Assembly (NCBI RefSeq): GCF_017873415.1
Contig: NZ_JAGGKD010000016.1
Coordinates: forward strand, 1-49,223
Origin: Methanolobus bombayensis
GTDB lineage: Archaea; Halobacteriota; Methanosarcinia; Methanosarcinales; Methanosarcinaceae
DNA: 49,223 bases
Reading direction: 5' to 3'
The notes beneath the pieces were generated by a model that was not told where the DNA came from, ran no database searches, and saw only the letters and a list, made by a program, of their open reading frames with translations. This document shows, one piece after another, positions 1 through 18,000 of this stretch; position 1 is the stretch's first letter; every line of letters begins with the position of its first letter. Both the position numbers and the translations under genes were made by a program.

Positions 1-3000
1 ACACAGGATGTCATCTTCTGTGATATGATGGGCAGCAAGACATTCAACGCCTATAACGGTACCATAAATGATAGTTTCAAGTCTGCACAGGATAACGGAG
101 CAGAACTTTACAGTATCCGTACCAGCAGCACTCCATCCTACTTTGACTATGTCATCTCAGGCGCTGCCTATCCTGATCCAATCTGTACATACTACCAGGC
201 AATCGACACTTCTGAAGAAGGAATCGAGAATGCTGAGAATCTTCTCATGTATCTGGCAACACATGATGACACTTTTGTAGAAACAATTCTTAACGCAGAT
301 GAGAGTACCAGTCTTATTGGCAGTGGTGATGTATTATTCATTCTGGGCACGGATTATAATGAAGCAGACCTGATCAATGCTGCAAACGATACCGAAATTT
401 CATCCATTATGAACATTACTATCCTGACAAATGACAATATTCCAACTGCGGACTATAATTTCTCGGCATATTCATTGATCTTCATGGAATCACTGGATGA
501 AAATGCAGTAGAAGGATGGAATTACAGTATAAATTCTTCAGCCAATGTCATTGGTTATAATCTGTCAGCCAATATTACTTTGCCAAACGTTGACCTGTAT
601 TCAGATGAGTACACAGATATTGAAAGATATTGGATACAGGGCGGAGAGGCCAACATGAAGAATATGCTTCAGTTCATGGCAGGAAGTCCAGCCATAGATG
701 AACCTGAAATTCTTCTTTCAAAGGAAAACCTGACATTCATCCTCAGTTCTGACAGCGCTGTTTCCTATATGAAAAATGTCATTGATGAAAGGGATGTTAT
801 CACAGACCGTTTCAACGTCAACGTAATGGGCACCCTTGAAGCTGTCAACGATTCTGTGGACCTCAGCAATGAAAATGTTATAATAATACATATGATGGGA
901 TCAGATGGAACTGCTGCAATAAAGGACAGGTTGCTTGAAGCAAAAGCCAATGGTGCAGAGATAGGTCATTTCGATAGTGTAGCTGATATCTATGGATTTA
1001 CTACCTTTGATCTGGAAGCCGATTATTCCATATTGCAAGACTATCTGTACAACAATGGATTTACCAATATGGAGTACTGGATACGCTGCACAGGAGCTAC
1101 TTTTACAGATGCATACATCGAATATGCAGATCCAGTAGAACCTGTTGTTCCTGAAGATGGAATTTACCATCCGGATGCATTCCCAAGGATATTCGAGGAT
1201 AGTGCAGAATACCTCCAATGGTATGAAGGCCACGGCTATGATCCTTCAGCACTTACTATAGGTGTAATTGGAAATAAATTCGGTCAAAGTTCCATTGAGT
1301 TTACAACAGAGGATGCAATAATCCAGTACCTGGAATCCCAGGGATGCAATGTTATTCATGCCAGTTACATTGTCACTAGCGAAGATGTGGATATTTTCAC
1401 TAAAGATGGAGAGGTACTGGTTGATGCAATCATTTCCATTAAAGGATTCTACCTGAACTATGGCAACCCGGAGGCAGGTGTGGACTACCTCCAGAATAAA
1501 TACAATGTTCCTGTGTTGAAAGGTGCTACTGACTACTACCAATCACCTGAAGAATACCTTGCGAATGTACAGGGACTTAGTTCCGCATCAATTCCATCTC
1601 AGGTCACACAGCCGGAAATTGATGGTCTTACCGACTACATATGGGTCGCAGGAAGGACACAGGATCCTGATACAGAACAGTATTACTATGAACCACTTGA
1701 CTATCAGCTGGAATGGATATGTGACAGGGCAATAGCCTGGTCAGAGCTCAGAGAAATGCAGAATGCTGACAAGAAGGTTACCATCATCTACTACAACCAC
1801 GAAGGTGGTAAGAACAATATCGGAGCCAGTTATCTTGATATCGGTTCAAGTTTCACACTGCTCCTTGAAGCAATGCAGGAAGAAGGATATGACCTTGGAA
1901 ACAACACCATTCCAAATGGAAGTGAGTTCATTGATCTGTTCATAACCAGCAGGAATGTTGGAACATGGGCTCCCGGAGAGCTTGAAAAGGTTGTCGAAAG
2001 TGGATATGTTACAATGGTTCCTGTAGATGACTATCTACAATATTTCAACGAACTTCCGGAAAGCGTACGTGAAGAGGTCAAGGGTACATGGGGAGAAGCA
2101 CCTGGAGATATCATGACCTATGAGAATGAAAGCGGTGAATACTTTGTCATACCAACAATACAGCTTGGTAACATCAATTTCGTTCCACAGCCAACAAGGG
2201 CAGGACTTTCTGATGAGTCACTGATTTACCACAATGAATCCATACCACCAACACACCAGTATCTTGCAACATACTTCTGGATCAACAATGATTATGATGC
2301 AGATGCGATGATCCACTTTGGTACTCACGGTACTCAGGAATGGTTACCTGGCAATGAAGTAGGACTCTGGAGGTATGATTATCCATCCATAATGGTTGCT
2401 GAAACACCTGTTGTTTACCCATACATCATGGATAATGTGGGAGAAGGTACACAGGCAAAGCGCCGTGGTAATGCAGTCATTATTGATCACCTGACACCTC
2501 CGATTGTTGAAGCCGGACTCTATGGTGAACTTCTTATAATGCATGAAAAGATCCATGAGTACCTTGAAGCAAAAGACGATGATACGGAAATGGCAGCACT
2601 CTATCGTAACACTACCATACAGTTATACGATAATCTCACAATGGGAGAGGATATTGGTGTATCCACCGAGAACCTGACCGCAATGTCGGAGGACGAGTTT
2701 GCAAGCTTTGTCGATACCACTTTGCATAATTACCTGCATGAGCTTCAGGATGAACTCATACCTTACGGAATGCATGTCTTTGGTGTGGCACCGGAAGGCG
2801 AACAATTTGTCACCATGGTCAAATCCATGCTTCGTGATGACTTTGTAGAACACATCTATGATGTGCTGCCAAAGACCAATGGAACAGAGGAAGACTGGAA
2901 TGATGAAGCGGATGCTGATGCCTTCTTGCTTTTGAATGTTACATTGCTGAATGGTACCAACGTCTCTGATGCACAGCTCATGGTCCTTGGTCAGGTCAAT

Positions 3001-4839
3001 GAGACCATCACAGCTGATCTTGAATTAGCTATTGAATATGGCAACAACCTCAACCTTACAACACAGGAGATAGATAATACTCTTAAGGCACTGAGTTCAG
3101 AATATATCGAGCCTGAGACCGGTAACGACCCAATACGTAACCCTGGTGCACTTCCAACAGGTAAGAACTTCTACAGCTTCGATCAAAGGACCATCCCGGA
3201 CGAAGAGACAGAAGTAATGGGACGTGAAGTAATCAATGCATGGCTTGATTCATATTACGCAGAGAACGGAGAATATCCGACCAAGGTTTCCTTTGTACTG
3301 TGGTCTGTTGAAACAATGCGCCACGAAGGTCTGATGGAAGCCCAGATATACGAACTCTTGGGTGTGGAGCCAAAGAGAAGTTCAGGCAGGCTCAATGGAG
3401 AGTTTGACGTGATACCTCTGGATGAACTTGGACATCCAAGGATTGATGTGGTGCTTGTACCTTCCGGACTCTATCGTGATACTTTCCCGTTCCAGCTTCA
3501 ACTATTAGACTCGGCGGTCCGCACAGTTGCTGATCTTGATGAGACTAATGAGACAAACTATGTGAGAATGAATTCACTTGTAATTGAGGATGCTATGCTT
3601 GAAATGGGATACAATGAAAGTATTGCACACTACATTTCAAGGTCAAGGATCTTCAGTGAAGCACCTGGAACATATGGTACCGGTGTTACCGAAGCAGTAG
3701 AAGCAAGTGACACATGGGAAAATTCAACCGAGATTGCTGATCTTTTCCTCTCCAGAATGGCAAATGTCTATGGAGCAGAGGTATGGGGTGAAAACTATGA
3801 GGAAGTCCTCAAGCTCAACCTTGCCGGTGTAGATGCAGCAATACACAGTGACTCATCAAACCTTTACGGTATTATGGACAATGACGATTTCTACCAATAC
3901 CTTGGTGGACTCGGACTGGCTATAAGATCACTTGGTGGTGATGCTTCATTGTTCATTGCAGACTTTACCAGTGTAGACAATCCTGAGGTCATTACTCTTG
4001 ACGAAGCTTTCAGTCAGGAATTGGCAGCCAGATATCTTAATCCTAACTGGGTAAACGGAATGATGGAGTATGATTACGCTGGTGCCAGGGAGCTGATGAA
4101 AACAGTTGAATATATGTGGGGTTGGGAAGCAACTACCCCTGGTCTTGTAACTGATTCGGATTGGGACAAGATCTATAAAACATATATCGAAGACTCACAG
4201 AATATAGGTGTGGATGACTTCCTGAAAGAAAATGCATACCAGTATCAGTCTATTACTTCCAGAATGATCGAAACTATCAGGAAGGAAGGCTGGACCACTT
4301 CAGATGATACCTTGAACAATCTTGTCAAAGAGTATGTTGAATCAGTTGTAAATGACGGTGTTACCTGCTGTCACCACACCTGTGGTAATATGCAACTTGC
4401 TGAATTCGTACAGGGTCAGATGCAGGCAGCAGGACTTACTCCGGAAATGCAAAGACAATATAATGAGTTGATGTATGAAGCAACTCTCCAGGATAACTTT
4501 GTTCAACAGCAACAAACCGAAGATGATTTTGTCCAGGCAAGGGATGATTCGCTCAACTCTGTCCAAAGAGCAATGGCTGCAGGCTCCGGTTCTTCCAACC
4601 AGTCTATGATGACAGAGTCAGGTGGAGCTGGAACAGATTATGACACACCAGTGCAGGATTCCGGAAAATCAACTCCTGACAACTACGTTCAAGGTTATGA
4701 GATGACACAGGAAACTGTCGATAATACCGATAGTACGAATAGTCCTATTATCTCAAGTTCGGATGTTCTTGCATCAGTATTTGTGGTGGGAACTCTCGGA
4801 GCCATATATATAGGATTCTGGAGAAGAAGGAAGTTCTAA
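1..4839 (+). CDS. Secreted, membrane-anchored CobN/BchH-family (cobaltochelatase-like) protein, 5' end cut by window
   Basis: The reading frame is open from base 1, so the gene starts upstream of the window and its first ATG inside (base 25) is not the start. Bases 1-30 read TQDVIFCDMM, matching a segment inside the N-terminal module of the third paralogue (near 10291). The visible N-terminal 1.1 kb holds the end of that module plus two more divergent modules of the same fold (about 320-620 and 720-1110). The CobN/Mg-chelatase large-subunit core follows, with the family signature HFGTHGTQEW at about 2311-2342 and NVGEG...DHLTPP at about 2434-2510. Near the C-terminus lie a cluster TCCHHTCGN (about 4362-4390), a Gln/Ser/Gly-rich linker, the motif STPDNYVQGYEMTQE, one hydrophobic segment and the tail FWRRRKF. 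The family inserts Co or Mg into tetrapyrroles in the cytoplasm, but the anchor and its paralogues' signal peptides place this protein outside the cell, so its reaction is unknown. No ATPase partner is nearby. Confidence 0.85.
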   Translation, partial: TQDVIFCDMMGSKTFNAYNGTINDSFKSAQDNGAELYSIRTSSTPSYFDYVISGAAYPDPICTYYQAIDTSEEGIENAENLLMYLATHDDTFVETILNADESTSLIGSGDVLFILGTDYNEADLINAANDTEISSIMNITILTNDNIPTADYNFSAYSLIFMESLDENAVEGWNYSINSSANVIGYNLSANITLPNVDLYSDEYTDIERYWIQGGEANMKNMLQFMAGSPAIDEPEILLSKENLTFILSSDSAVSYMKNVIDERDVITDRFNVNVMGTLEAVNDSVDLSNENVIIIHMMGSDGTAAIKDRLLEAKANGAEIGHFDSVADIYGFTTFDLEADYSILQDYLYNNGFTNMEYWIRCTGATFTDAYIEYADPVEPVVPEDGIYHPDAFPRIFEDSAEYLQWYEGHGYDPSALTIGVIGNKFGQSSIEFTTEDAIIQYLESQGCNVIHASYIVTSEDVDIFTKDGEVLVDAIISIKGFYLNYGNPEAGVDYLQNKYNVPVLKGATDYYQSPEEYLANVQGLSSASIPSQVTQPEIDGLTDYIWVAGRTQDPDTEQYYYEPLDYQLEWICDRAIAWSELREMQNADKKVTIIYYNHEGGKNNIGASYLDIGSSFTLLLEAMQEEGYDLGNNTIPNGSEFIDLFITSRNVGTWAPGELEKVVESGYVTMVPVDDYLQYFNELPESVREEVKGTWGEAPGDIMTYENESGEYFVIPTIQLGNINFVPQPTRAGLSDESLIYHNESIPPTHQYLATYFWINNDYDADAMIHFGTHGTQEWLPGNEVGLWRYDYPSIMVAETPVVYPYIMDNVGEGTQAKRRGNAVIIDHLTPPIVEAGLYGELLIMHEKIHEYLEAKDDDTEMAALYRNTTIQLYDNLTMGEDIGVSTENLTAMSEDEFASFVDTTLHNYLHELQDELIPYGMHVFGVAPEGEQFVTMVKSMLRDDFVEHIYDVLPKTNGTEEDWNDEADADAFLLLNVTLLNGTNVSDAQLMVLGQVNETITADLELAIEYGNNLNLTTQEIDNTLKALSSEYIEPETGNDPIRNPGALPTGKNFYSFDQRTIPDEETEVMGREVINAWLDSYYAENGEYPTKVSFVLWSVETMRHEGLMEAQIYELLGVEPKRSSGRLNGEFDVIPLDELGHPRIDVVLVPSGLYRDTFPFQLQLLDSAVRTVADLDETNETNYVRMNSLVIEDAMLEMGYNESIAHYISRSRIFSEAPGTYGTGVTEAVEASDTWENSTEIADLFLSRMANVYGAEVWGENYEEVLKLNLAGVDAAIHSDSSNLYGIMDNDDFYQYLGGLGLAIRSLGGDASLFIADFTSVDNPEVITLDEAFSQELAARYLNPNWVNGMMEYDYAGARELMKTVEYMWGWEATTPGLVTDSDWDKIYKTYIEDSQNIGVDDFLKENAYQYQSITSRMIETIRKEGWTTSDDTLNNLVKEYVESVVNDGVTCCHHTCGNMQLAEFVQGQMQAAGLTPEMQRQYNELMYEATLQDNFVQQQQTEDDFVQARDDSLNSVQRAMAAGSGSSNQSMMTESGGAGTDYDTPVQDSGKSTPDNYVQGYEMTQETVDNTDSTNSPIISSSDVLASVFVVGTLGAIYIGFWRRRKF

Positions 4840-4849
4840 AATCAATTTT

Positions 4850-4885
4850 GGCACTTTTCCTGTAAAAGTGCCTTTTATTTTTTTA
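4850..4885 (+). terminator. Hairpin plus U-tract terminator after CobN-like gene 1
   Basis: A perfect 9-bp stem (GGCACTTTT at 4850-4858, AAAAGTGCC at 4864-4872) with a 5-nt loop starts 10 bases after the stop codon and runs into a T-rich tract. The same stem design recurs after the other two CobN-like genes. Confidence 0.75.
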
Positions 4886-4891
4886 ATTCTT

Positions 4892-4931
4892 ATATGTTAA
4901 TTAACATATCATTATATGCTAATTAGTATAA
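4892..4931. promoter_or_regulatory. Two tandem palindromes 22 bp apart (candidate operator pair)
   Basis: Bases 4892-4909 (ATATGTTAATTAACATAT) form a perfect 18-bp palindrome. A degenerate second copy, ATATGCTAATTAGTATAA, occupies 4914-4931, so the two start points are 22 bp apart, about two helical turns. They lie between the gene 1 terminator and the orphan ORF and gene 2, where a repressor dimer pair could bind. The regulator is unknown. AT-rich DNA makes single palindromes common, so the spaced second copy is the main support. Confidence 0.45.
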
Positions 4932-5118
4932 TCAAATAAGCTTATATCTGTTGCATATATACACATATAGATATCCTTAATGCAAATCAAATGGTTTAAT
5001 AATAAGATGCTTATTGACAAATTATTGCTCTTTTATAGTTCTAACTAAAGGAAATCATTGGAAAAAGAAATGTTCTGAAGGAAAGTGGTTATTGAAATAA
5101 GTATCTGATAATAGTTAT

Positions 5119-5159
5119 GAACACTCCTGTGTAGCCGCCAAGCAAGTTCAGGAGTGTTC
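5119..5159 (+). promoter_or_regulatory. Strong stem-loop in leader upstream of orphan signal-peptide ORF
   Basis: GAACACTCCTG (5119-5129) and CAGGAGTGTTC (5149-5159) are perfect 11-bp complements around a 19-nt loop. There is no U-tract after it. It ends 22 bases before the ATG at 5182, so it would sit in the 5' leader and could be a cis-regulatory RNA structure. It does not match a cobalamin riboswitch consensus that I know. Confidence 0.5.
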
Positions 5160-5181
5160 TCACACATCACCGGGTGGTAAT

Positions 5182-5319
5182 ATGCAACATACAAAAGTAA
5201 TTTCATTGATTTTAAGCTTATTGTTTGTTTCAGTACTAACAATTAGTAATACTTTGTGTGCTGCAGGTGCAAATTCAATATCTTACGCCAATGTTTCATT
5301 GAATACCACTACTACCTAA
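5182..5319 (+). CDS. Orphan 45-residue signal-peptide ORF (leader peptide or gene remnant)
   Basis: ATG at 5182 is preceded by GGGTGGT, a fair ribosome binding site. The product has an H/K start, a long hydrophobic core (about residues 6-24), a plausible cleavage site after LCAAG, and only about 18 further residues ending NTTTT. It is followed 97 bases later by the ATG of the second CobN-like gene. It could be a small secreted peptide, a regulatory leader peptide, or the surviving N-terminus of a deleted paralogue. The product shows no other similarity that I recognise, and translation is unproven. Confidence 0.4.
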   Translation: MQHTKVISLILSLLFVSVLTISNTLCAAGANSISYANVSLNTTTT

Positions 5320-5416
5320 GGTTGATGGATCTTTCAAAGATACCTAAATTGAAAATTAACACAAATAAAGTGAACTTAAATCAAACCAGTTGGTTCAAAA
5401 AGTGGTGAAGTACGAT

Positions 5417-8400
5417 ATGATAAAAAATAGCATCAGGAAATGCAAGATTTTAAGTGCATTTTTTTTGATTTTAATGTTGCTGACAACTACGGTTTTAGCA
5501 GATTCGATTGATGACGAACAAAAAATAGCCATAGAGAATAGCATGGTGGAGGAATCTGTTCAGAGTGCATCTGTAAATAGTAATCCTATCATTATTGATG
5601 ATCCTATTGCTGAAGACAGCAGACCAAAGATATGTTATGTCCTTTCTAGGCCATATGCGGTCACTCTAATGCAGAATGTGGCAGAAGATCCCGAAATAAG
5701 TTCCCAGATGAACATTAGCATCTATCTGGGAACATCTTATGCAGATCTTAGTTTTGATCTAAGTGATCAGGACCTTGTTGTCCTGAGAAACCTGGATGCC
5801 TATGTAGTAGATTCAATTACACCTACGGTAAATGAAGCAAAAGCAAATGGTGCAGAGATCGTATCCATAGGTGAAACTCTGCAGGCTTATGATTTCCATA
5901 CAATTAATACATCCGAATCCGAATATTCTGATATTGGATTATATCAGGAATATGCATCAGAGGATAATTTTAAAGGACTAACTACTTTCCTTGGAGTAAA
6001 ACTTTTCAACCTGAACTATACGATCACAGAACCGATGGAAAGACCTGTTTATGGCATTTATCATCCTCTTGGACCTCATATATATGATAACCTAAGTGAT
6101 TATCTTGACTGGTATAGTTCAGAAGGAACCTATGATCCGGAAGAACCTACAATTGCAATCATAACTACCAGCTACAAAAGAGTGGAAAGGGATATGCCTT
6201 TGCTTGATCCTCTTGTTGAGGAAATAGAAGGTAAAGGATACAATGCCATTGTCACAACCTATGCATACAAGGATGACAGGTCACTTAGCTATCTGATGCT
6301 TGATACTAAATCAATTGCTGATGCTGCAATTGTAATATCCCGTGGTTCACGTCTACATTACAAAGATAATGCACAGGGAATTGCCGATCTGGAAACACTG
6401 AATATAACCATGCTCGATGGTGCACGTCTGTTCTCCGGAGTAAGTGTTGAAGAATGGGAGGACAGCATCAAAGGCGTACCACCTGCCCAACAATATCAGG
6501 TTGCATATGCAGAGCTTGATGGTATAATAGAACCAATTGTCATTAGTGGAAAAGCAATAGATGAAGCAACAGGCATTGAATACAACCAGCCAATTGATTA
6601 TCAGGTAGAATGGCTCGTTGACAGGACAATATCCTGGGCAGAGCTGCATGAGAAAGATAATTCCGAGAAGAAAGTTGTAATCCCATATTACAATCCGGAA
6701 GGTGGTAAAGCAGATGTTGGTGCTGATATAGATTATTACCTTGATGCACAGGCAAGTCTTGCAAACCTGCTTGAAGCCATGAAAGAGCGTGGTTATAACG
6801 TTGGAAATGATCCGCTGCCAAATTCCAGCGAACTCGCTGACATGATGGTCGAAAGAGGACACAATGTAGGTAACTGGGCTCCCGGTGAACTGAACAGCAT
6901 GGTAGAGAACGGAACTGTGATACTCATTCCTGAATCTCAATATATGGGATGGTTCGATGAGCTTCCACAGGAAAAGCAGCATGAAATGACCGATATGTGG
7001 GGCGAAGCGCCTGGAAACATCATGGTGTACGAGAATGAGACCGGCAAATATCTTGTCATTCCTGTTCTGGAATTTGGAAACATCCTTCTTTCACCGGACC
7101 CACAGCACGGCTGGTCTTCCAGTGAGCAGGCAATGTATAACAACGGATCATATCCACCAACACACCAGTGTTTTGCATTCTACAAATACATGTCAAGAGA
7201 ATATGATGCTGATGCATTGTTCACCATATTCTCAAGTGTGGAACTGATGCCCGGAAAGGAGTGCGGTCTCTCAGCAAAGGACTGGGGAGCATTGTTGCTT
7301 GAGGATATGCCTCATATTCATGTTCTTCCAATGGACGCAGAAGGTGTCTTTGACAGAAGAAGGGCAAACATGCTCATTATTGATTTCATGACACCAACTA
7401 TAGTTCCTTCAGGTCTTTATGGTGACCTTGCAAATCTCCAGGACGAAATAACACTTTTCAAGCAGGCAACAGATTCTGCAGTTCTGGAAAGTTACAGGGA
7501 GAGCATCCTTAACCAGACAAGGACCCTTTATCTGGATAATGATCTTGGAGCAGACCTTTATTCCATAGAGGGCAATGCTACGATGACAGACGAATTCATT
7601 GATGAATTATCTGATTATCTGTATGAGATCAAGACAGCTTACATGCCATACGGTTCACATATTCTTGGAGAAGTTCCTGACGGAGAAAGTCTTGTAATGC
7701 TCATAAAAAGCATGCTTGGAGATGATTATGTAGAGCATGTGGAAGCACTTGGAGGAAACGAGGATCTTTCTTTTTTGTTATTGAATGAAACAATACTCAA
7801 TGGAAGTTCTCCGTATGATGCACAGATACTAGTACTGGGTCAGAACTCCACAGAGCTTGATGCTGACCTGGAACTTGCACAGGATTATCTTGACAGGATA
7901 CAGGACTCAGAATGTGAGATTACAAAGATACTGGATGCTCTTGATGGAACTTACATTACTCCTGGACCATCAGGCGATCCGATAAGGAATCCGGATGCGT
8001 TGCCAACAGGTAGGAATCTCTACACATTCGATGATCGTCTGATTCCGACAAAGGCAGCCTGGGATGTAGGTTCAGAACTTGCAGAAGAAATGCTTGACCT
8101 TAAACTTGAGGAAGATGGCAAATATCCTGAAAAGATAGCATTCCTGCTGTGGTCTGTGGAAACAACAAGAAATCAGGGAGTGATGGAATCTGAGATTTTC
8201 AAACTACTTGGAGTTGAACCACAATATGATAGCAAGAACAGGGTGTCGGACCTAAGACTTATGAATTCTTCAGAACTTGGAAGATCAAGGATAGATGTTA
8301 TGGTGGTTACTTCAGGTCTTTACCGTGATGTGTATCCAAGCAAGATCGAACTCATTGATGAAGCTATAAAACTAGCAGCTTCAGCAGACGATGACACATA

Positions 8401-9688
8401 TCCAAACTATGTGAGAATTCATTCCAATGAAACATATCAGTCTCTCATTGAAGAAGGATACAATGAATCACTTGCATACAATCTCTCAGTAGCCAAGATA
8501 TTCTGTCCGCCTCTTGGTGGATATACACCAGGAATCCAGGAAGCGATAACAAGTGATACCTGGGAAGACCCCGATGAGATAGCTTCTCTCTACATTGACA
8601 GGATGGGATATGTTTATGGTGAAGGAATCTGGGGTGAGCATTATTCTGACGTTCTGGAAATGAATCTTGCAGATGTGGATACGGCAGTATTCAGTAGGAC
8701 ATCAAATCTATATGGTGTACTTGATCACAATATGGTTGCAGCCTATTTCGGTGGGCTCAGCATGGCAGTGAAATCTGCAAGTGGCTCAGCGCCTGCTATG
8801 TATATCAATGATCTTAGCAGCACTGCAGAGATTGAAACTCTCAGTGAGTTCCTGAATAAGGACCTGCGTTCTAGATATTTAAATCCAAACTGGATAGAGG
8901 GGATGATGGGTAATGGATTTGATGGTACTCGTTACATGGACTCGGTTTATGAGGTAATGAGAGTATGGGATGTAACTGCTCCTTCCCTTGTTACCGATGA
9001 AATGATGGACGACTTGTATAAAACATACTTTGAAGACCAGTATGATATCGGGGTGGATGAGTATCTGGAGTCCACAAACCCTTATGCCTATCAGTCAATG
9101 GCTGCAACGGCATTGGATTCAATAAGGACTGATTATTGGGATGCTTCAGATGATGTGCGTAATAACCTCGTCAAAGAGTATGTAGAATCCACTGTAGAGA
9201 ATGGTGTAACATGTTGTCACCATACTTGTGGAAATCCGCTTTTGAATAAATTCATCCAGAGTGTGATGGAATCTGAAGATCTTGTTGATGATGCAACAGC
9301 AGCAGAATACAAGAGAATAATGCAGGCAGCTATTCTGACAGAGATAAGTTCTTCTGAAGAGACGGATGTATCCACCAGCAGTAGTAGTGGAAGTCACAGC
9401 AGTAGCTCAAAGAATACTGAATTGACTATACGAGAAGCCGTATCCGGCTCAACTAACCAGACAACAGTGTCCGATTCTGGAGCGGGTATGGATATGGCAT
9501 CTTCTGCTCAGGACACTGTGAAATCAACACCTGATAACTATGTTGAAGGCTATGAGATGACACCGGAAACTGTTCCTGAGGTTGAAAGTGGAAGCGGATT
9601 TTCAATGACCGGTTCAGAGCTCATGGCTTCCTTGCTGGTTCTTGCTGGTGTTGGGGCTATATATCTGGGATTCTGGAGAAGAAAATAA
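5417..9688 (+). CDS. Secreted, membrane-anchored CobN/BchH-like protein lacking the family HxGTHGxxEW motif
   Basis: I chose ATG 5417 over the upstream TTG 5390 because GGTGA (5404-5408) lies 8 bases before it and the protein then begins with a clean signal peptide (MIKNSIRKCK, then hydrophobic to VLA, about residue 30). One N-terminal module (ICYVLSRPY onward) precedes the CobN-like core. At residues about 602-610 the expected metal/tetrapyrrole signature HxGTHGxxEW is replaced by FTIFSSVEL, one residue shorter. The downstream NVGEG and DHLTP motifs are changed to MDAEG and DFMTP. Despite this, conservation elsewhere is high (PIRNPDALPTGRN, LLWSVETTRNQG, SRYLNPNWIEGMM), and TCCHHTCGN, STPDNYVEGYEMTPE, a C-terminal membrane helix and FWRRK remain. 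It is probably a non-catalytic binding or scaffold paralogue. Length is 1423 residues. Confidence 0.85.
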   Translation: MIKNSIRKCKILSAFFLILMLLTTTVLADSIDDEQKIAIENSMVEESVQSASVNSNPIIIDDPIAEDSRPKICYVLSRPYAVTLMQNVAEDPEISSQMNISIYLGTSYADLSFDLSDQDLVVLRNLDAYVVDSITPTVNEAKANGAEIVSIGETLQAYDFHTINTSESEYSDIGLYQEYASEDNFKGLTTFLGVKLFNLNYTITEPMERPVYGIYHPLGPHIYDNLSDYLDWYSSEGTYDPEEPTIAIITTSYKRVERDMPLLDPLVEEIEGKGYNAIVTTYAYKDDRSLSYLMLDTKSIADAAIVISRGSRLHYKDNAQGIADLETLNITMLDGARLFSGVSVEEWEDSIKGVPPAQQYQVAYAELDGIIEPIVISGKAIDEATGIEYNQPIDYQVEWLVDRTISWAELHEKDNSEKKVVIPYYNPEGGKADVGADIDYYLDAQASLANLLEAMKERGYNVGNDPLPNSSELADMMVERGHNVGNWAPGELNSMVENGTVILIPESQYMGWFDELPQEKQHEMTDMWGEAPGNIMVYENETGKYLVIPVLEFGNILLSPDPQHGWSSSEQAMYNNGSYPPTHQCFAFYKYMSREYDADALFTIFSSVELMPGKECGLSAKDWGALLLEDMPHIHVLPMDAEGVFDRRRANMLIIDFMTPTIVPSGLYGDLANLQDEITLFKQATDSAVLESYRESILNQTRTLYLDNDLGADLYSIEGNATMTDEFIDELSDYLYEIKTAYMPYGSHILGEVPDGESLVMLIKSMLGDDYVEHVEALGGNEDLSFLLLNETILNGSSPYDAQILVLGQNSTELDADLELAQDYLDRIQDSECEITKILDALDGTYITPGPSGDPIRNPDALPTGRNLYTFDDRLIPTKAAWDVGSELAEEMLDLKLEEDGKYPEKIAFLLWSVETTRNQGVMESEIFKLLGVEPQYDSKNRVSDLRLMNSSELGRSRIDVMVVTSGLYRDVYPSKIELIDEAIKLAASADDDTYPNYVRIHSNETYQSLIEEGYNESLAYNLSVAKIFCPPLGGYTPGIQEAITSDTWEDPDEIASLYIDRMGYVYGEGIWGEHYSDVLEMNLADVDTAVFSRTSNLYGVLDHNMVAAYFGGLSMAVKSASGSAPAMYINDLSSTAEIETLSEFLNKDLRSRYLNPNWIEGMMGNGFDGTRYMDSVYEVMRVWDVTAPSLVTDEMMDDLYKTYFEDQYDIGVDEYLESTNPYAYQSMAATALDSIRTDYWDASDDVRNNLVKEYVESTVENGVTCCHHTCGNPLLNKFIQSVMESEDLVDDATAAEYKRIMQAAILTEISSSEETDVSTSSSSGSHSSSSKNTELTIREAVSGSTNQTTVSDSGAGMDMASSAQDTVKSTPDNYVEGYEMTPETVPEVESGSGFSMTGSELMASLLVLAGVGAIYLGFWRRK

Positions 9689-9713
9689 CTTAAATATTTT
9701 TCTGAGAATTTTT

Positions 9714-9746
9714 GGTACTTTTCTTGTAAAAGTACCATTATTTTTT
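9714..9746 (+). terminator. Hairpin plus U-tract terminator after CobN-like gene 2
   Basis: A perfect 9-bp stem, GGTACTTTT (9714-9722) with AAAAGTACC (9728-9736), encloses the 5-nt loop CTTGT and is followed by ATTATTTTTT. It is the gene 1 terminator with one compensated base-pair change (C-G to T-A). Confidence 0.75.
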
Positions 9747-9763
9747 ACTATTTCAAAACGAAA

Positions 9764-9781
9764 CTTTTATATGATTATCAT
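9764..9781 (+). promoter_or_regulatory. Possible TATA element overlapping a short palindrome, upstream of CobN-like gene 3
   Basis: CTTTTATATG is TATA-like and overlaps ATGATTATCAT (9771-9781), an 11-bp inverted repeat with a single central base. It lies about 245 bases before the ATG at 10024, which implies a long leader. It resembles half of a metal-repressor box, but this is only a visual likeness. Confidence 0.3.
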
Positions 9782-9896
9782 GTGTTAGTTTTAATACTCA
9801 CAAGTCTAAAGTTCAATATTTTGTTCAACGCTTCTGAGTTAATATCTAAAATTAATATGCATACGGTGGTTCGAAAAAAGAATACATTACTTTACA

Positions 9897-9944
9897 TGTT
9901 GGTACAGGATTTTATTTATGAATAGATGAAATCCTGTTTCAACA
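9897..9944 (+). promoter_or_regulatory. Long imperfect stem-loop in leader of CobN-like gene 3
   Basis: TGTTG (9897-9901) pairs with CAACA (9940-9944), and after a 2x2 internal loop ACAGGATTT (9904-9912) pairs with AAATCCTGT (9929-9937). That gives 14 base pairs around a 16-nt loop. No U-tract follows. It starts about 127 bases before the start codon, so a regulatory leader structure is plausible. Confidence 0.45.
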
Positions 9945-10023
9945 GATTTTAGATTCAAGTTAATATGCGAACATTGCGACATTGTGGAGGCTTTGTTTGT
10001 TCGGGTATATTTCGGGGGATAAT

Positions 10024-13000
10024 ATGAAAACAAAAACAAGATCTATATTATTGACAAGTATATTGTTGTTATTATCATTAACAACAATTGTATCGGCGGA
10101 TGAACAACAAATAGATATCATGTATGTAGGATGGGTGCCAAATCCTGCCCTGGAAATGGCAAGTCAGAACGCTACGTTTGCTGAAGATATAAACTACATT
10201 TATATTCCTTCCTATAACACTACAACCTGGGCCGGACCAAGTGACGAACTTATTGAAGCTGCAAATTCCGGACTTCTAGAGGAACAGGATGTCATCTTCT
10301 GTGACATGCTTTCTGCAAGTATTTACGACCCTCTAAATGCTTCATTCTTTGATGCAAAGTATAATGGAGTATCATTGGTTGATATAAGATCCATAAACAC
10401 TCCTGCTTACTTTGACTATGTTTCCAATGGCTCGATAGATGATTCTATATGCAACTACTACAACAGCATGGGTATTGAAAGCGAGGTAGAAAAACAGAAT
10501 GCTGAGAATCTGCTCAACTACCTCGCAACAGAATACGGTAATCATCCGGAGATCACAGATAACTGGGTAACTCTCAAGGTAATGTACATTGCCTGGGCAC
10601 CAAGTGATGCACTTGCAACTGCAAGTCAGACAAATCCATACAGTCAGAATATAGAGTACACTTATATTCCATCATACAACACAACAACCTGGGCCGGACC
10701 CAGTGATGAACTGATAGCCGCTGGCGAAGGAGGTCTTCTGTCTGAACAGGATGTTATATTCTGTGATATGCTCGCAGATAATATATTCAATCCAATGAAC
10801 ATCTCCTTAAGTGCTTCACATGATAACGGTACTGTGCTGGTGGATATACGTTCCATTAACACTCCTGAATACTTCGATTATGTTTACGAAGGTTCAGAGA
10901 ATATCACTTTCTGTAACTACTACAATAATATGGGAACTGCAACCACTTCCCAGTTAATTAATGCAGAGAATCTTCTTATCTATCTTACAAAGGAACTTAC
11001 AAATAATCCTGAGCTCACAGATGAATGGGAATACGTAACACCTGGTCAGATATCGTTGCCTGACATAGGTCTTTATCATCCTGATTATGAAGGCAAGTAC
11101 TTCGAGACAACAGAAGAATATCTTGCATGGTATTCAGATTACGCTGGTTCACACAGAGTATATGATCCAAGCAAGCCCACCATAGGAATGTGGATGCACA
11201 GGTCCGATATCAAAGATGGAAATATAGAAGTTGTTGATGCACTTGTGGAAGATATCGAATCAAAGGACTGTAACGTAATACTAGGATTCGATACCTTTGA
11301 TGATATTATCAAATACTATTGTGATGAGGAAGGTAATCCTCTCGTACAAAGTGTGATCTCACTGAAAAGTTTCAGGCTTAATTATTTCAATAACACAAAA
11401 GGTCTGGAAGAACTTGAGGCTCTGGACGTTCCTGTTCTCAGGGGTATTGTTGTTGAAAGTACAAATACTTACGACCCTGCAGATGAGAATCGTGGAATAC
11501 CTAATGGCCAGGTGGTACGCAAGACCATAGGCCCTAACGTTGATGGTATTTTTGAATACATAGTTGTGGGTGACAGCATATATAATCCTGATACACAGAC
11601 CAGTGTTTTTGAAGCAAGGGATGCACAGGTTGATTGGATTGTTAATAGATCCATAAACTGGGCAGAACTGAAACTTAATGAGAATAAAGACAAGAAAGTT
11701 GCAATCATCTACTACAACTATCCATCAGGAAAAGATAACATCGGTGCAAGTTATATGGACACCATCTCAAGCATGAGACTGTTGCTCAATAAAATGGATG
11801 GAGCCAACTTCACTGTGGAAAGTGTTCCTGATAATAACAGCCAGTTTCTTGAAATGATATGGGCACAGGGTATCAATGCCGGTTCATGGGCTCCGGGTGT
11901 CATGAATGAAATGATTGAGAATAGGACCGAATGGGGACTTCAGCTCATACCAATGGAAATATATCATCAGTGGTTTGAAGAGGAGATACCTGATGATCTT
12001 AAGGATCAGGTCATTCAGGAATGGGGAGAACCATGGAATGAAGACCTTCCACAGAATAAGAGTCTTATGATCTGGGAAGATGATCTTGGTGAGAAATTCA
12101 TTGTCATTCCAACCGTCCAGTTTGGTAATGTATGGATTATGCCGCAGCCAGCAAGGGGTTTCATTCAGAATGACGATGCACTTTATCACAGCAGCATTGT
12201 TCCACCACCACACCAATACATTGCTTTCTATTTATGGCTTAATGATGACTGGGATGCTGATGCGATTATTCATCTGGGCACCCATGGAACACACGAATGG
12301 TTGCCGGGACAGGCATATGGTATGAACCGCTCAGCAGAGTGGGCACCACTTTTGCTGCAGGATCTGCCTAACATCTATCCTTACATCGTGGCAAATGTCG
12401 GTGAAGGACTTACAGCTGAATATCGTGGTAATGCACTGATCATCGATCATCTGACACCTACACTTGAAAGATCAGGAACTTATGGTCAACTGGAAAACAT
12501 GTCACGCTTCATCCAGGAGTACTATGGACCTGAGATGTCATTGCAGACAAAACAGGCATATCAGATGGCTATAATCGATGAAATGGTGGAATCCGGAGTT
12601 GATGTGGACCTTGAGGTCAATGCAACGGAACTTTACCTTTATGATGAATCACAATTTGATGGCTTTGTTAAAGATATACTCCATGAATATCTTGAAGATA
12701 TCGAAGGAGAGAACATACCATACGGAATGCACATACTTGGAGAGGTTCCTTCAACCAATTCCACAGGTCCTTACAGGGATGAGCTTTCAGGAATGGTAAG
12801 GTCAATGATGGGAAGTTATTTTGAGGACAATATCACGGCAGCTTTCTATCCTTTAAATGAATATCCACTTGGAATTCCATTTAATGACACAGATATCGAT
12901 CTTCTGGTATGGGAGGTTATGACCAATGGAACAAGTCCAGATGATGCTCAGTTGATGGTCTATGGAGAGATCAACAAGTCAGTGAATCTGGATCTGGAAT

Positions 13001-14859
13001 TTGGTCTTGATTGCAGGCAGAACCTCCTGGACAGTGCCATTGAGATTGATCGTGTGATATCTGCATTGAGTGCAGGTTTCGTTCCGGCAGGTCCGGGAAC
13101 AGATCCTGTGATGAATCCTAATGCGGTTCCAACTGGAAGGAACTTCTATGGTGTCAATCCAGAACTCTATCCATCAGAAGCAACCTGGAAGCTTGGAAAG
13201 GTGCTTGCACAACAGTTGCTTATAGACTACTATGAGAACCACGGTGAATACCCACGTAAAGTATCCTTCTCCAGGTTTGGAGTAGAGTTCATCAGAGACC
13301 ATGGTACCCTTGAAGCAGAGGCACTGTATCTGATGGGTGTAAAGCCGATATGGGACAGGAATGGTAAAGTTACAGGAATAGAGCTTTTATCTGAAGAAGA
13401 ACTTCTGCCGGACTATGATACCTCTGCACCAGGAAGACCTCGTATTGATATAGTATATACTACTGCTGGTATGCGTGATGCATTCCCGGATAAGTTGAAG
13501 ATGCTCGATGACGCTGCAAAACTTGCGAACCTTGCAGAGCCGGGGAACTATCCGAACTATATTAATATCAGCACACAGGCAATCTACACAGATCTGTATG
13601 CTTCATTCCTGAACAGCACAGGAAATGAGACATATTCAGCTGAGATGGCAGGTAAATTGTCAACAATGAGGTGCTTCGCAGTTCGTGACGGTACTTACGA
13701 GATAGCTGTTGGAAATGCAATTGAAGCTAGTGGTACATGGGAAAATGAATCTGAGATCGCCGAGCTGTATCTTGATAAGATGGGGTATGCTTATGGAAGT
13801 GAACTCTGGGGTTTTGACTGTTCCGAACTTCTCAGAGGTAACCTGATGAATGTGGATGCTTCAGTACACTCCGATTCTTCCAACCTGTATGATACGCTTG
13901 ATAACGATGATTTCTTCCAGTATTTCGGTGGTCTGAATCTTGCTACAAGGTATGTAAGCGGCAAGACACCTGACATGTATGTGTCTGATACAAGGAATCC
14001 TGACCAGGCAGAGATGGTGGAGCTTGGCCGGTATATCAACGTCAACATCCGTTCCAGATATCTTAATGATAAGTGGATCGAAGGTATGATGAATTCCGGG
14101 TATTCCGGTGGCAGAATGATGGCTGAGTTCTTTGACAATCTCTGGGGCTGGGAAGTCTCTAATCCTGAACTCGTCGATGACAGTATGTGGGAAAATGCGC
14201 TTGAAACATACGTCAATGATGATATGAAGGAGTTCTTCAATGCGAACAATCCAGGTGCATACCAGTCCATTACAGCAAGGATGCTGGAAGGTGTACGTAA
14301 AGGCTACATAAAAATGTCGGAGGATTCAGTTAACAAACTTGTAAATGAGTACGTGGAATCAGTTGCAGAATACGGGGCAACATGTTGTCACCACACATGT
14401 GGTAATATGGCTTTGGATGATTTTACAAAGGGTCTTATGTCGGGAGCCGGAGTTCCTCCGGAAATACAGCAAAAATACAATGAAAGAATGTATGAAGCTA
14501 CCCTGCAAGATCAGTTTGTGGCACAACAAGCAACTGATACAAGTTCATTGAAAACAACAAAAGATGATTCGTTCAACTCTGTCCAAAGAGCAATGGCAGA
14601 TGGTTCTGGTTCATCCAACCAGACGATGATGGCTGATTCAGGTGGAGCAGGAACAGATTATGACGCACCATTAAAGGATTCTGGAAAATCAACTCCTGAC
14701 AATTACATTGAAGGATATGAGATGACACAGGAAGCTGTCGAGAATACCGAGAGTTCAAATACTCCGACATTCACGAGTTCAGATATCTTTGCATCAGTAT
14801 TTGTGGTGGGAACTCTTGGAGCCATATATATAGGATTCTGGAGAAGAAGAAAATTCTAA
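10024..14859 (+). CDS. Secreted, membrane-anchored CobN/BchH-family (cobaltochelatase-like) protein with duplicated N-terminal module
   Basis: ATG 10024 follows CGGGGGAT. The upstream TTG at 9982 would add 14 residues ahead of a clean signal peptide (MKTKTRSILLTS to VSA), so I rejected it. The mature protein begins with two tandem modules of about 154 residues (DIMYVGWVP... and KVMYIAWAP...). The CobN/Mg-chelatase core follows, with HLGTHGTHEW at residues 750-759 and NVGEG...DHLTP after it. Near the end come TCCHHTCGN, a Ser/Gly/Gln linker, STPDNYIEGYEMTQE, one membrane helix and FWRRRKF. Length is 1611 residues, longer than a typical cytoplasmic CobN (about 1200-1300). The signature motif is intact, so tetrapyrrole or divalent-metal binding outside the cell is plausible. 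Actual chelatase activity is unproven because no ChlI/ChlD or CobS/CobT gene is here and extracellular ATP is unlikely. Confidence 0.85.
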   Translation: MKTKTRSILLTSILLLLSLTTIVSADEQQIDIMYVGWVPNPALEMASQNATFAEDINYIYIPSYNTTTWAGPSDELIEAANSGLLEEQDVIFCDMLSASIYDPLNASFFDAKYNGVSLVDIRSINTPAYFDYVSNGSIDDSICNYYNSMGIESEVEKQNAENLLNYLATEYGNHPEITDNWVTLKVMYIAWAPSDALATASQTNPYSQNIEYTYIPSYNTTTWAGPSDELIAAGEGGLLSEQDVIFCDMLADNIFNPMNISLSASHDNGTVLVDIRSINTPEYFDYVYEGSENITFCNYYNNMGTATTSQLINAENLLIYLTKELTNNPELTDEWEYVTPGQISLPDIGLYHPDYEGKYFETTEEYLAWYSDYAGSHRVYDPSKPTIGMWMHRSDIKDGNIEVVDALVEDIESKDCNVILGFDTFDDIIKYYCDEEGNPLVQSVISLKSFRLNYFNNTKGLEELEALDVPVLRGIVVESTNTYDPADENRGIPNGQVVRKTIGPNVDGIFEYIVVGDSIYNPDTQTSVFEARDAQVDWIVNRSINWAELKLNENKDKKVAIIYYNYPSGKDNIGASYMDTISSMRLLLNKMDGANFTVESVPDNNSQFLEMIWAQGINAGSWAPGVMNEMIENRTEWGLQLIPMEIYHQWFEEEIPDDLKDQVIQEWGEPWNEDLPQNKSLMIWEDDLGEKFIVIPTVQFGNVWIMPQPARGFIQNDDALYHSSIVPPPHQYIAFYLWLNDDWDADAIIHLGTHGTHEWLPGQAYGMNRSAEWAPLLLQDLPNIYPYIVANVGEGLTAEYRGNALIIDHLTPTLERSGTYGQLENMSRFIQEYYGPEMSLQTKQAYQMAIIDEMVESGVDVDLEVNATELYLYDESQFDGFVKDILHEYLEDIEGENIPYGMHILGEVPSTNSTGPYRDELSGMVRSMMGSYFEDNITAAFYPLNEYPLGIPFNDTDIDLLVWEVMTNGTSPDDAQLMVYGEINKSVNLDLEFGLDCRQNLLDSAIEIDRVISALSAGFVPAGPGTDPVMNPNAVPTGRNFYGVNPELYPSEATWKLGKVLAQQLLIDYYENHGEYPRKVSFSRFGVEFIRDHGTLEAEALYLMGVKPIWDRNGKVTGIELLSEEELLPDYDTSAPGRPRIDIVYTTAGMRDAFPDKLKMLDDAAKLANLAEPGNYPNYINISTQAIYTDLYASFLNSTGNETYSAEMAGKLSTMRCFAVRDGTYEIAVGNAIEASGTWENESEIAELYLDKMGYAYGSELWGFDCSELLRGNLMNVDASVHSDSSNLYDTLDNDDFFQYFGGLNLATRYVSGKTPDMYVSDTRNPDQAEMVELGRYINVNIRSRYLNDKWIEGMMNSGYSGGRMMAEFFDNLWGWEVSNPELVDDSMWENALETYVNDDMKEFFNANNPGAYQSITARMLEGVRKGYIKMSEDSVNKLVNEYVESVAEYGATCCHHTCGNMALDDFTKGLMSGAGVPPEIQQKYNERMYEATLQDQFVAQQATDTSSLKTTKDDSFNSVQRAMADGSGSSNQTMMADSGGAGTDYDAPLKDSGKSTPDNYIEGYEMTQEAVENTESSNTPTFTSSDIFASVFVVGTLGAIYIGFWRRRKF
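10111..11037 (+). repeat. Tandem intragenic duplication of about 460 bp in CobN-like gene 3
   Basis: Copy 1 runs from 10111 to about 10572 and copy 2 from 10573 to about 11037. Aligned landmarks are PSYNTTTWAGPSDELI, EQDVIFCDML, VDIRSINTP and YFDYV in both copies. Several stretches of 10-17 bases are identical, for example AACCTGGGCCGGACC, so the duplication is fairly recent. Confidence 0.8.
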
Positions 14860-15077: not shown

Positions 15078-18000
15078 ATGACGGATAGGAAAAAAATTGC
15101 ATTCATCTTCATACTTTTATTGTTTTTTACATCTCTTGCTTCGGCAAACAATGACGACAACATTATCTTTCTGAAAGCAGGTCATATTGATACTGATCTG
15201 AAAAAGGATGCAAACACTACAGAGCCGCATATAATGAGTTCTAGTGTGAATAGTGAATTGCCTGATAGTTCAGAAACATATTATCTGGTTCAATTCAATG
15301 GCATTGTAAAGCCTGAATGGAAAGAAGCGTTGATAACAACAGATGCTGAGATTTTAGATTACGTTCCTGATAATACATTTGTGCTGAAAATGAATGAAAC
15401 CGTCAGGGTTCAGGTTGAGTCTTTTGATTTTGTACGCTGGGTTGGGGGATATTTACCTGATTATAAGTATGTGGAAGAAACAGATTTCTCTATAAATTCA
15501 TTAGATTCTGAAAACACAGGGACTATTGATTTAGTTGTGTATCTTTTCGAACCTGATATCAACGGATATGTTAAGTCTGAAATCGAGGTTTTAGACGGCA
15601 TTATAGTAGACGAATCCGATGAAATGTTGTGGATACGACTTGGTGAAGACCGGATAGAAGAACTTACACAAATCAACAGTGTAAGCTGGATCGAAGAAGT
15701 TCAGGAATTAACAGTATCTAATAATGTTGCATCAGAGATTCTCAAGGTTAACACTGTTCATAATACACTTAGCCTGAAAGGAAATGAGCAAATAGTTGCT
15801 GTTTGTGACATCGGACTTGACAAGGGAGTTAATGACAACTCAATGCACGCAGATCTCAGGGGAAGGATACTTGAGATTATGGATTATTCAGATGATGGTG
15901 CTGAAGATACAACGGGACATGGTACTCATGTAACTGGTTCAGTCCTTGGTAATGGTAATCTGTCAGATGGAGAATATGCAGGAACGGCACCTGGAGCCGA
16001 GCTTGTATTTCAGGCAATAGGTGACGATAATGGAGATATAGTTCCTCTTTACAGTTCGATATCTAATGTTTTCCAGGATGCATATAATGCCGGGGCGAGA
16101 ATACATACCAATAGCTGGGGATCTGATACAGATGGAGTATATGATGGTTATTCTTTTTATTTAGATAAATTTGCATGGGAGCATCCTGATATGTTGATAT
16201 TGTTCTCTGTTGGAAATGAAGGAGAGGACATGGATGATAATGGTGTTGTTGATCAGGGTTCCATTAACTCACCTGCAACTGCCAAAAACTGTCTGGCAGT
16301 AGGTGCTTCTGAAACTGACAGGGGAGAGACTTTTTCTATTAATTCTTATTCTACATGGGGTACACGCTGGTCCGATAAATATGATACTGAACCTATTAAA
16401 AACGATTATTTGGGAGATGATAGTGAAGGTATTGCAGCATTCAGTAGCAGAGGTCCAACAAATGACAGCAGGATAAAACCGGATATCGTTGCACCTGGTA
16501 CTTTCATAATCTCGACCCAGGCAAGTACAAGTACTGCATGGTATGACTGGGACACTTCTTCAACCGGACAGTATTATGCATACATGGGTGGAACAAGTAT
16601 GGCCACACCATTGGTTGCAGGTTCCGCTGCCCTTGTTAGAGAGTATTATAATGACTACGAAAATGTAGCAAATCCAAGTGCAGCTCTTCTTAAAGCAACT
16701 CTTTTGAATGGTGCATACGACCTGACACCCGGACAATACGGAACCGGAGATGATCAGGAAGTAACCGGGAGACCTGATTACTCTCAGGGTTGGGGAAGAC
16801 TTGATGTTGAAAATTCCATTATGGCTGAGTACCCGAAAGTTATAGCATATTATGATGGTGAATCTCTGAGCACCGGTGAATCATGGATTCATACCTATGA
16901 TTATATTGAAAGCGGCAATTCTTTAAGGGCCACTCTTGTATGGACCGACTATCCGGGCCAGGTTTACTCTAGCAAAAATCTCATGAACGATCTTGACTTT
17001 ATTATCACAGGTCCTTCTGAATCATATTATGGAAATGGTGGTTCTACCCCGGATCATATCAACAATGTTGAAGGAATTGAATTAAATAGTGTATCAGGAG
17101 GAGATTATACATTTATTGTTGATGGTTACAGTGTGAGTATTGGTGGAGAACAACCTTTCTCACTAGTAGCTTCCTTCATCTGCGATAATAATGAGTTCCC
17201 TGCACCCGGCACACTGGCTGACAGTAAGAACACTGCGGTGTCCACTGATGTTGTGCATCCACAGGGAGTTGATCTTAGTTCTATTGTCATGAGCATAAAT
17301 AATGTTCCAGTATCATTTGATTCGGTTCAGATTACTGATGGTTATAGTATTGAATACAACAATCCTTCATCTTACCAGACCGGTAAATACAACGTCTCTG
17401 TAACAGCTACTACCGAAAATGGTCTGGATTTCTCATACTCATGGAATTTCACAGTTGATGCTGAAAGCTCAAACACTGCTCCTGTTCTTTCGGCTATCGG
17501 AAACAGGGAGGTCAGTGAAACCTATCCTCTGACAATCGAACTTTCAGCAGAAGATGATGATGGTGACACACTTACTTTTGGCACAAACGCAAGCTTTGGT
17601 GTCCTTGTTGATGACACTTTTACATGGAATACGGGTTACAGTGATGCCGGAGCATATGATTTTGAATTTAATGTTACCGATGGAATCGATGTCGATTCGG
17701 AAATTATTACAATAAATGTAATTAATGTGGATAGGGCACCTGTCCTGTCATATATAGGCAACAAAACTGTAAGTGAGAATAATACACTTGTTTTCAGTAT
17801 CAATGCAACCGATGATGACAATGATACTGTAACGTATTCAGCAAATGGGTTGCCAGAGGGCACTACTTTTGATACAAATAATGGAGATTTCACCTGGACT
17901 CCACAATATGATGAATCAGGAATTTACAACGTAGAATTCATCGCATGGGCAAATGGAATCAATGATTCGGAAACAATTAAAATAACTGTTGTTAACGTGG

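Follow-up and report, generated by a model that had tools for sequence, protein, structure and literature searches.

The window, i.e. the whole stretch of 49,223 nucleotides analysed here from Methanolobus bombayensis, which constitutes all of contig C16, opens with a row of giant CobN/BchH-like proteins that are very likely exported members of the BtuS/HmuS kind. The row extends beyond the contig edge onto contig C8, where genes for a DUF2162 protein, a MotA/TolQ/ExbB protein and a DUF2149 protein directly precede its first member. We propose that the locus could serve PMF-energised scavenging of tetrapyrroles at the cell surface, with removal of the metal where the equivalent of HmuS His538 is kept, a reading for which we see the balance as even.

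The three CobN/BchH-like open reading frames of the window lie on the forward strand (ORF1, 1..4839; ORF2, 5390..9688; ORF3, 9982..14859), and profile searches gave a full-length PF02514 match in each of them (1102, 965 and 956 bits, respectively). ORF1 (type A), the 5′ end of which is cut by the contig edge, comprises at least four head-type modules, the chelatase body and a C-terminal membrane anchor. ORF2 (type B) is without the catalytic His motif and likely starts at ATG 5417. ORF3 (type C), with a likely start at ATG 10024, consists of two head repeats, the chelatase body and a C-terminal anchor, and its best PDB sequence match is HmuS (9d26). A model of its N-terminal head repeat, built on an alignment of three sequences, was uninformative (pLDDT 40). 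The last 92 nt of C8 are identical to the first 92 nt of the window (1..92, forward strand). This overlap falls in the tandem head-domain repeat of ORF1, which accounts for the assembly break at base 1, and the number of head repeats in ORF1 may have been collapsed in the assembly. In the closed genome of a relative (G001), a row of CobN-like genes is followed by two S8 proteins and a kae1-type gene, in agreement with a C8–C16 join; from the sequences, the join is strongly indicated. An earlier note on this DNA described three tandem giants, which holds for the window, but the row has a fourth paralogue on C8, immediately upstream of ORF1 (hereafter the C8 copy). Lying at the end of C8, this gene is the only other PF02514 gene found in the genome.

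Signal peptides are present at the N-termini of ORF2 and ORF3, and ORF1 has its own signal peptide on C8. In all three proteins a C-terminal hydrophobic segment is followed by basic residues. N-glycosylation sequons occur at 13–17 per 1000 residues in the window proteins versus 0.8–3.8 in six cytosolic archaeal CobN proteins, and this high density supports export. The two visible signal peptides and three anchors that the earlier note reported were thus seen again, with the signal peptide of ORF1 added, and the extracytoplasmic location that it proposed is supported by the predicted export signals, the anchors and the sequon density. A juxtamembrane Cys motif, CCHHTCGN, is found in ORF1 (4366..4389), ORF2 (9212..9235) and ORF3 (14383..14406), all on the forward strand. 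Such a motif (TCCHHTCGN, CCCxxCCGN or SCSGFVCDN) occurs almost throughout the exported clade, the exceptions being the Azospirillum protein and one Bacteroides protein, and is absent from cytosolic CobN and ChlH. The C-terminus of the C8 copy (L005, near 18600–19058) has an ORF1-like TCCHHTCGN tail rather than the CCCxxCCGN of the type-D relatives in the genus, a tail that suggests gene conversion within the array.

Phylogenetic analysis separated ChlH and the cytosolic CobN proteins from a side uniting all exported proteins of archaea with HmuS and the proteins of Trichlorobacter and Azospirillum (UFBoot 100), and the same split was recovered in a FastTree tree (0.99). The archaeal exported proteins grouped with the Trichlorobacter and Azospirillum proteins (97), apart from HmuS. 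None of the three window ORFs reached the curated cut-off of any CobN or BchH model; for ORF1, the scores were 588 bits against a cut-off of 822 (TIGR02257) and 1242 against 1619 (NF004645) for CobN, and 617 bits against 829 for BchH. The model of ORF1 residues 341–1500 (pLDDT 81, pTM 0.80) best matched HmuS (9d26, TM 0.86) and then CobN (7c6o), a ranking biased towards HmuS because the alignment behind the model was mostly HmuS.

In relatives, genes matching AAA+ chelatase models (over the cut-off or nearly so) adjoin only cytosolic CobN genes. No CobS/CobT, ChlI/ChlD or cobalamin genes were seen on C16 or in the stretch of C8 that was read, so that neither an ATPase partner nor a cobalamin operon adjoins the row, as the earlier note had maintained. 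The only AAA+ chelatase-like pair of the genome is an unlinked, split ChlI/ChlD-like pair at C1:189–191.7 kb. If the window proteins were ordinary metal-inserting chelatase subunits, this distant pair is what they would work with. However, the pair is also present in CobN-less relatives, and the proteins carry export signals and sequons, miss the NCBIfam CobN and BchH cut-offs and fall outside the AAA+-linked clade; we regard this possibility as extremely improbable. A cytosolic location of the chelatase-like proteins was likewise rejected on the profile scores below the cut-offs, the ATPase linkage pattern, the sequon density and the tree. In one cytosolic archaeal CobN subfamily (L011–L013, L150, L152, L154, L155), GCCCYFGxHGG replaces DxDDxxQYHGG at the metal site.

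The upstream flank, in which a CobS/CobT or ChlI/ChlD pair had been thought conceivable, instead contains a predicted transporter of about 225 residues (DUF2162; PF09930, 229 bits), the ExbB-type channel and the DUF2149 protein (PF09919, 121 bits). The absence of an adjoining transporter stated earlier was therefore only apparent and resulted from the contig edge. Two of the three members of this archaeal partner set match proteins of the Bacteroidota hmu operon: B. fragilis HmuV matches DUF2149 (E 4e-35) and is 45% identical to the archaeal DUF2149, and the archaeal ExbB shares 38% identity with HmuU. Comparison of HmuT with DUF2162 showed no homology. HmuV was published as having no homology to any known family (PMC13227078), a statement that its predicted assignment to DUF2149 extends. 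A literature search on DUF2149 and DUF2162 found no title or abstract on their archaeal function.

Wherever the beginning of the array is visible in relatives within the genus, the cassette adjoins CobN-like genes, in one case a decayed copy. CobN-like and DUF2162 genes co-occur in the relatives (Fisher p 2e-6, not corrected for kinship). The exceptions are two genomes (G017 and G018) in which probable CobN N-termini are cut at contig ends, and one (G027) with only a cytosolic CobN and no DUF2162. In a draw of 148 genomes from the phylum, 41 have DUF2162, and the stretch around the locus also contains an exported CobN gene at 22 of the 29 resolvable DUF2162 loci outside the genus, leaving 7 without one. 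The cassette thus recurs across the phylum, and the order DUF2162-ExbB-DUF2149-CobN is identical in Trichlorobacter lovleyi. Cassettes with no exported CobN gene in the stretch read are those of L188, L193, L215, L217, L218, L222 and L226. At L124 (G007:C2:1868772–1872008), a decayed CobN gene with many stops stands beside an intact DUF2162 gene and shortened ExbB and DUF2149 frames, which we read as evidence of gain and loss.

A second ExbB-DUF2149 pair in the genome (L141, G000:C23, 8514–12301) adjoins an S-layer family protein (TIGR01567), as do those of L142 and L164; the motor may therefore energise other surface proteins too. The pairing with S-layer proteins would also suit a reading of the CobN-like proteins as structural or adhesive surface components in which the chelatase fold persists with no small-molecule function, and so would the extra Ig-like, PKD and head-repeat parts of several paralogues and the varying copy number of the CobN-like genes among relatives. 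However, most paralogues conserve the residues of the cleft and metal-related neighbours recur in unrelated families, and a structural or adhesive role seems very improbable.

Archaea have no outer membrane, and the ExbB of the cassette therefore cannot energise a TonB receptor. A separate exbB-exbD-tonB set lies beside the Trichlorobacter cassette, so that the cassette ExbB need not serve a receptor there either. The simplest common role of ExbB would be to energise the CobN-like ectodomain or DUF2162. From such a role follows the proposal of a motor swap, in which the cytosolic AAA+ motor of CobN and ChlH has its counterpart in a membrane ExbB-DUF2149 motor in the exported clade. In the proposed mechanism, the four giant, C-terminally anchored proteins would face outward, and corrinoid-, haem- or F430-like molecules would be captured by one to several head modules together with the chelatase cleft. 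ExbB and DUF2149 would form a PMF-driven motor that powers the ectodomain, in place of the AAA+ motor found in ordinary class I chelatases, and DUF2162 would be the likely conduit for released metal or electrons. ORF1, ORF3 and the C8 copy, which keep His538, would be the most likely to extract the metal or hand it over. The full version of this proposal, a motor-swapped chelatase that strips or hands over Co, Ni or Fe with substrate-specialised paralogues and the ORF2 subfamily as a binder, is tentative and more probably wrong in some part than right throughout. The same logic would extend to Bacteroidota HmuUV, whose currently assumed role is to serve the outer-membrane receptor.

Comparison of 36 DUF2162 proteins showed an invariant PCP-x-C motif and a nearly invariant GCG motif, and these Cys residues plausibly form a transmembrane metal or electron site. 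DUF2162, which we take to resemble CcdA, might alternatively be a CcdA/DsbD-like electron conduit that reduces the CCHHTC motif or a bound metal, in which case the CobN-like proteins would reduce or remodel metallotetrapyrroles outside the cell. The invariant Cys, the membrane Cys and the clade-wide juxtamembrane Cys motif are in keeping with such a redox role, as is the finding that HmuS turnover requires a reductant (PMC12583661). However, HmuS loci are without DUF2162 in place of HmuT and no thioredoxin-type partner was seen, and we consider the role improbable.

HmuS is a demonstrated haem dechelatase that converts haem to PPIX and Fe(II), and its H538A variant binds haem with turnover abolished (PMC12583661). 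Active-site positions are given here in HmuS numbering. Types A, C, D and E retain His538, and the HFG(T/A)HG motif reads HLGTHG in ORF1 and ORF3 and HFGRHG in the C8 copy and is lost in ORF2. The conserved chelatase motif with the His538 equivalent is HFGTHGTQEWLPG in ORF1 (2314..2352) and HLGTHGTHEWLPG in ORF3 (12271..12309), both on the forward strand. The Glu577 equivalent is kept in ORF1 and ORF3, and His538 and Glu577 are both present in most paralogues. At the LSLDHxxEFMGG site of HmuS (His1209 and Glu1212), ORF1 and ORF3 have DNDDFxQY, with a CobN-type Asp at the His1209 position (MDNDDFYQYLGG, 3874..3909, and LDNDDFFQYFGG, 13897..13932, respectively, forward strand), ORF2 has DHNMVAAY, and only the C8 copy has the HmuS-type FDHTYEFFGG. 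The corresponding motifs are DSDDYFQY in M. tuberculosis CobN, SHYFD in Synechocystis ChlH and VDHYFD in BchH, showing that, in these references, the porphyrin enzymes have His and the corrin enzymes Asp. The comparison yields a prediction of the macrocycle on which each paralogue could act: the C8 copy would have a haem-type active site as in HmuS, and ORF1 and ORF3 a corrin-type site as in CobN. The substrate code is not clean, because the Azospirillum protein has a haem-type motif, yet a cobalamin riboswitch lies 3′ of its operon. Of the HmuS haem ligands Met79 and His254, ORF1 has a Met at 79 and no His254 and the others differ, in a weak alignment of the heads. The Met-rich insertion of domain IV is missing, with 28 residues and at most one Met in ORF1–3 compared with ~165 residues in HmuS. 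Demetallation is demonstrated only for HmuS, and we know of no precedent for the removal of cobalt from an intact corrin. For ORF1 and ORF3, we give the removal of Co from finished B12 the same probability as capture and hand-over, or as the extraction of Ni or Co from tetrapyrroles that are less inert.

In ORF2, LFTIFSSVELMPG (7217..7255, forward strand) replaces HxGTHGTxEWLPG, and together with LDHNMVAAYFGG marks a protein from which His538 is gone, a loss overlooked in the earlier note. Five genomes of the genus share the altered motifs (clade support 1.0), and the same type B motif recurs in three genomes of two other families (L192, 3690; L196, 11235; L207, 3537). The dN/dS of ORF2 orthologues is 0.07–0.14, like that of the neighbouring genes. 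As judged from these sequences, the ORF2 type is a conserved, ancient subfamily under purifying selection, for which binding of the ligand without turnover would be expected. Decay to a pseudogene was considered for ORF2 and rejected on its open frame, the dN/dS of about 0.1 and the retention of the altered motif across genomes.

In the closed genome G166 (L192), the sole CobN-like protein is of the His538-less type and is accompanied by the full cassette. The cassette can therefore serve something besides His538-dependent demetallation, and this genome is the strongest evidence against demetallation as the whole function. It fits uptake without demetallation, in which the CobN-like proteins would be surface receptors for corrinoids or other tetrapyrroles and DUF2162 with ExbB-DUF2149 a PMF-driven importer of the intact ligand, as an alternative to BtuCDF. 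The multiplied head modules suit capture, HmuTUV were proposed as a haem transporter by the P. gingivalis authors (PMC13227078), and the Trichlorobacter cassette lies between two TonB-dependent receptors and beside cobalamin genes, behind two tandem cobalamin riboswitches; the CobN-like protein there has the corrin-type motif. However, most paralogues retain counterparts of His538 and Glu577, the CbiMQO genes nearby point to metal in free ionic form, and DUF2162 with about 225 residues is small for a corrinoid channel. We regard uptake of the intact ligand as rather unlikely, though it carries real weight. Scavenging with metal removal where His538 is kept, the reading we prefer, likewise has features of the sequences against it: G166 with its His538-less type only, the missing Met79/His254 pair, His1209 and Met-rich insertion in the window proteins, HmuT rather than DUF2162 at the hmu loci, ExbB-DUF2149 beside S-layer proteins and the mixed signals of Azospirillum.

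The genomic context elsewhere points to metals and corrinoids as probable substrates. In four families (L158, L194, L195, L219), the cassette forms one contiguous cluster with genes for the cobalt ECF transporter CbiMQO, although nickel may be the substrate of these CbiMQO-type neighbours. Type-D loci of relatives have a DtxR/MntR-like repressor and a flavodoxin. A palindrome, TCCTAAYNNTRTTAGGA, lies upstream of the type-D CobN gene in three genomes, in which all its matches are within that locus; it has no match in three genomes where its locus was not found, and as a metal-repressor site before the array of the window it is absent from the present genome. No riboswitches were found at six cassette loci of archaeal genomes. 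In a proteome study, the BtuS proteins of M. barkeri change with the iron or sulfur source (PMC10846266). An ABC transporter gene pair (membrane and ATPase domains) was observed beside the flavodoxin/type-D CobN locus at L117 (2377–5950) and L127 (13651–17223).

Among known systems, HmuS of the Bacteroidota hmuYRSTUV operon (PDB 9d26, 9p4s; PMC12583661) shares an exported, membrane-anchored class I chelatase fold with no AAA+ partner, the ExbB-like HmuU and DUF2149 HmuV neighbours, His538 (in ORF1, ORF3 and the C8 copy) and the side of the tree. In contrast, no HmuY, HmuR or HmuT was seen at the archaeal locus, which has DUF2162 instead; the window proteins are without the Met-rich insertion and the Met79/His254 pair, and His1209 is present only in the C8 copy; and the archaeal proteins are tandem paralogues (one without His538), sequon-rich and with multiplied heads. 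The 2025 HmuS paper noted many archaeal HmuS homologues of unclear function without complete hmu operons. BtuS1 and BtuS2 of B. fragilis (PMC6460266) and M. barkeri BtuS (PMC10846266) are likewise multi-copy CobN-like proteins for salvage with a periplasmic or exported location, but the portions of these papers at hand do not describe the archaeal DUF2162-ExbB-DUF2149 cassette or types A to E. The 'CobN' cluster on pSZ77 of Trichlorobacter lovleyi (PMC3403914; L135) has the same gene order and a CobN-type DNDD motif; it differs in its Gram-negative host, TonB receptors, separate exbB-exbD-tonB, upstream cobalamin riboswitches and single copy. CobN of CobNST and archaeal cytosolic CobN with a TIGR02442 ATPase share the PF02514 fold and the DSDD/DNDD motif, but are cytosolic and AAA+-linked, have no C-terminal Cys motif or anchor and belong to another clade. 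ChlH/BchH of magnesium chelatase share the PF02514 fold and the HxGxHG motif, but are cytosolic and AAA+-dependent, and the window proteins are under the BchH cut-off.

The BtuS/HmuS kind is thus already known, with bacterial members and M. barkeri BtuS in a proteome (PMC10846266), so that the earlier claim of an undescribed system narrows to the archaeal, multi-paralogue, motor-linked variant, which is not described in the literature as far as it was accessible. Its suggestion of scavenging rather than biosynthesis is supported as the likely role. Since archaea are without an outer membrane, the idea that HmuUV-type motors drive the chelatase itself becomes testable in them. If correct, the proposal would give methanogens a route to recycle scarce cobalt, nickel or iron from the cofactors of dead neighbours, and many 'cobaltochelatase subunit CobN' annotations would be corrected.

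Downstream of the row, an S8 subtilase with Ig-like repeats and a PGF-pre-PGF domain (15078..21140, forward strand) is a conserved neighbour in the genus, and a second S8 subtilase-type surface protein of the same arrangement (21262..25602, forward strand) belongs to the homology cluster of the first. The two also recur behind the array in relatives. Both are possible members of the system, in which they might release tetrapyrroles from proteins.
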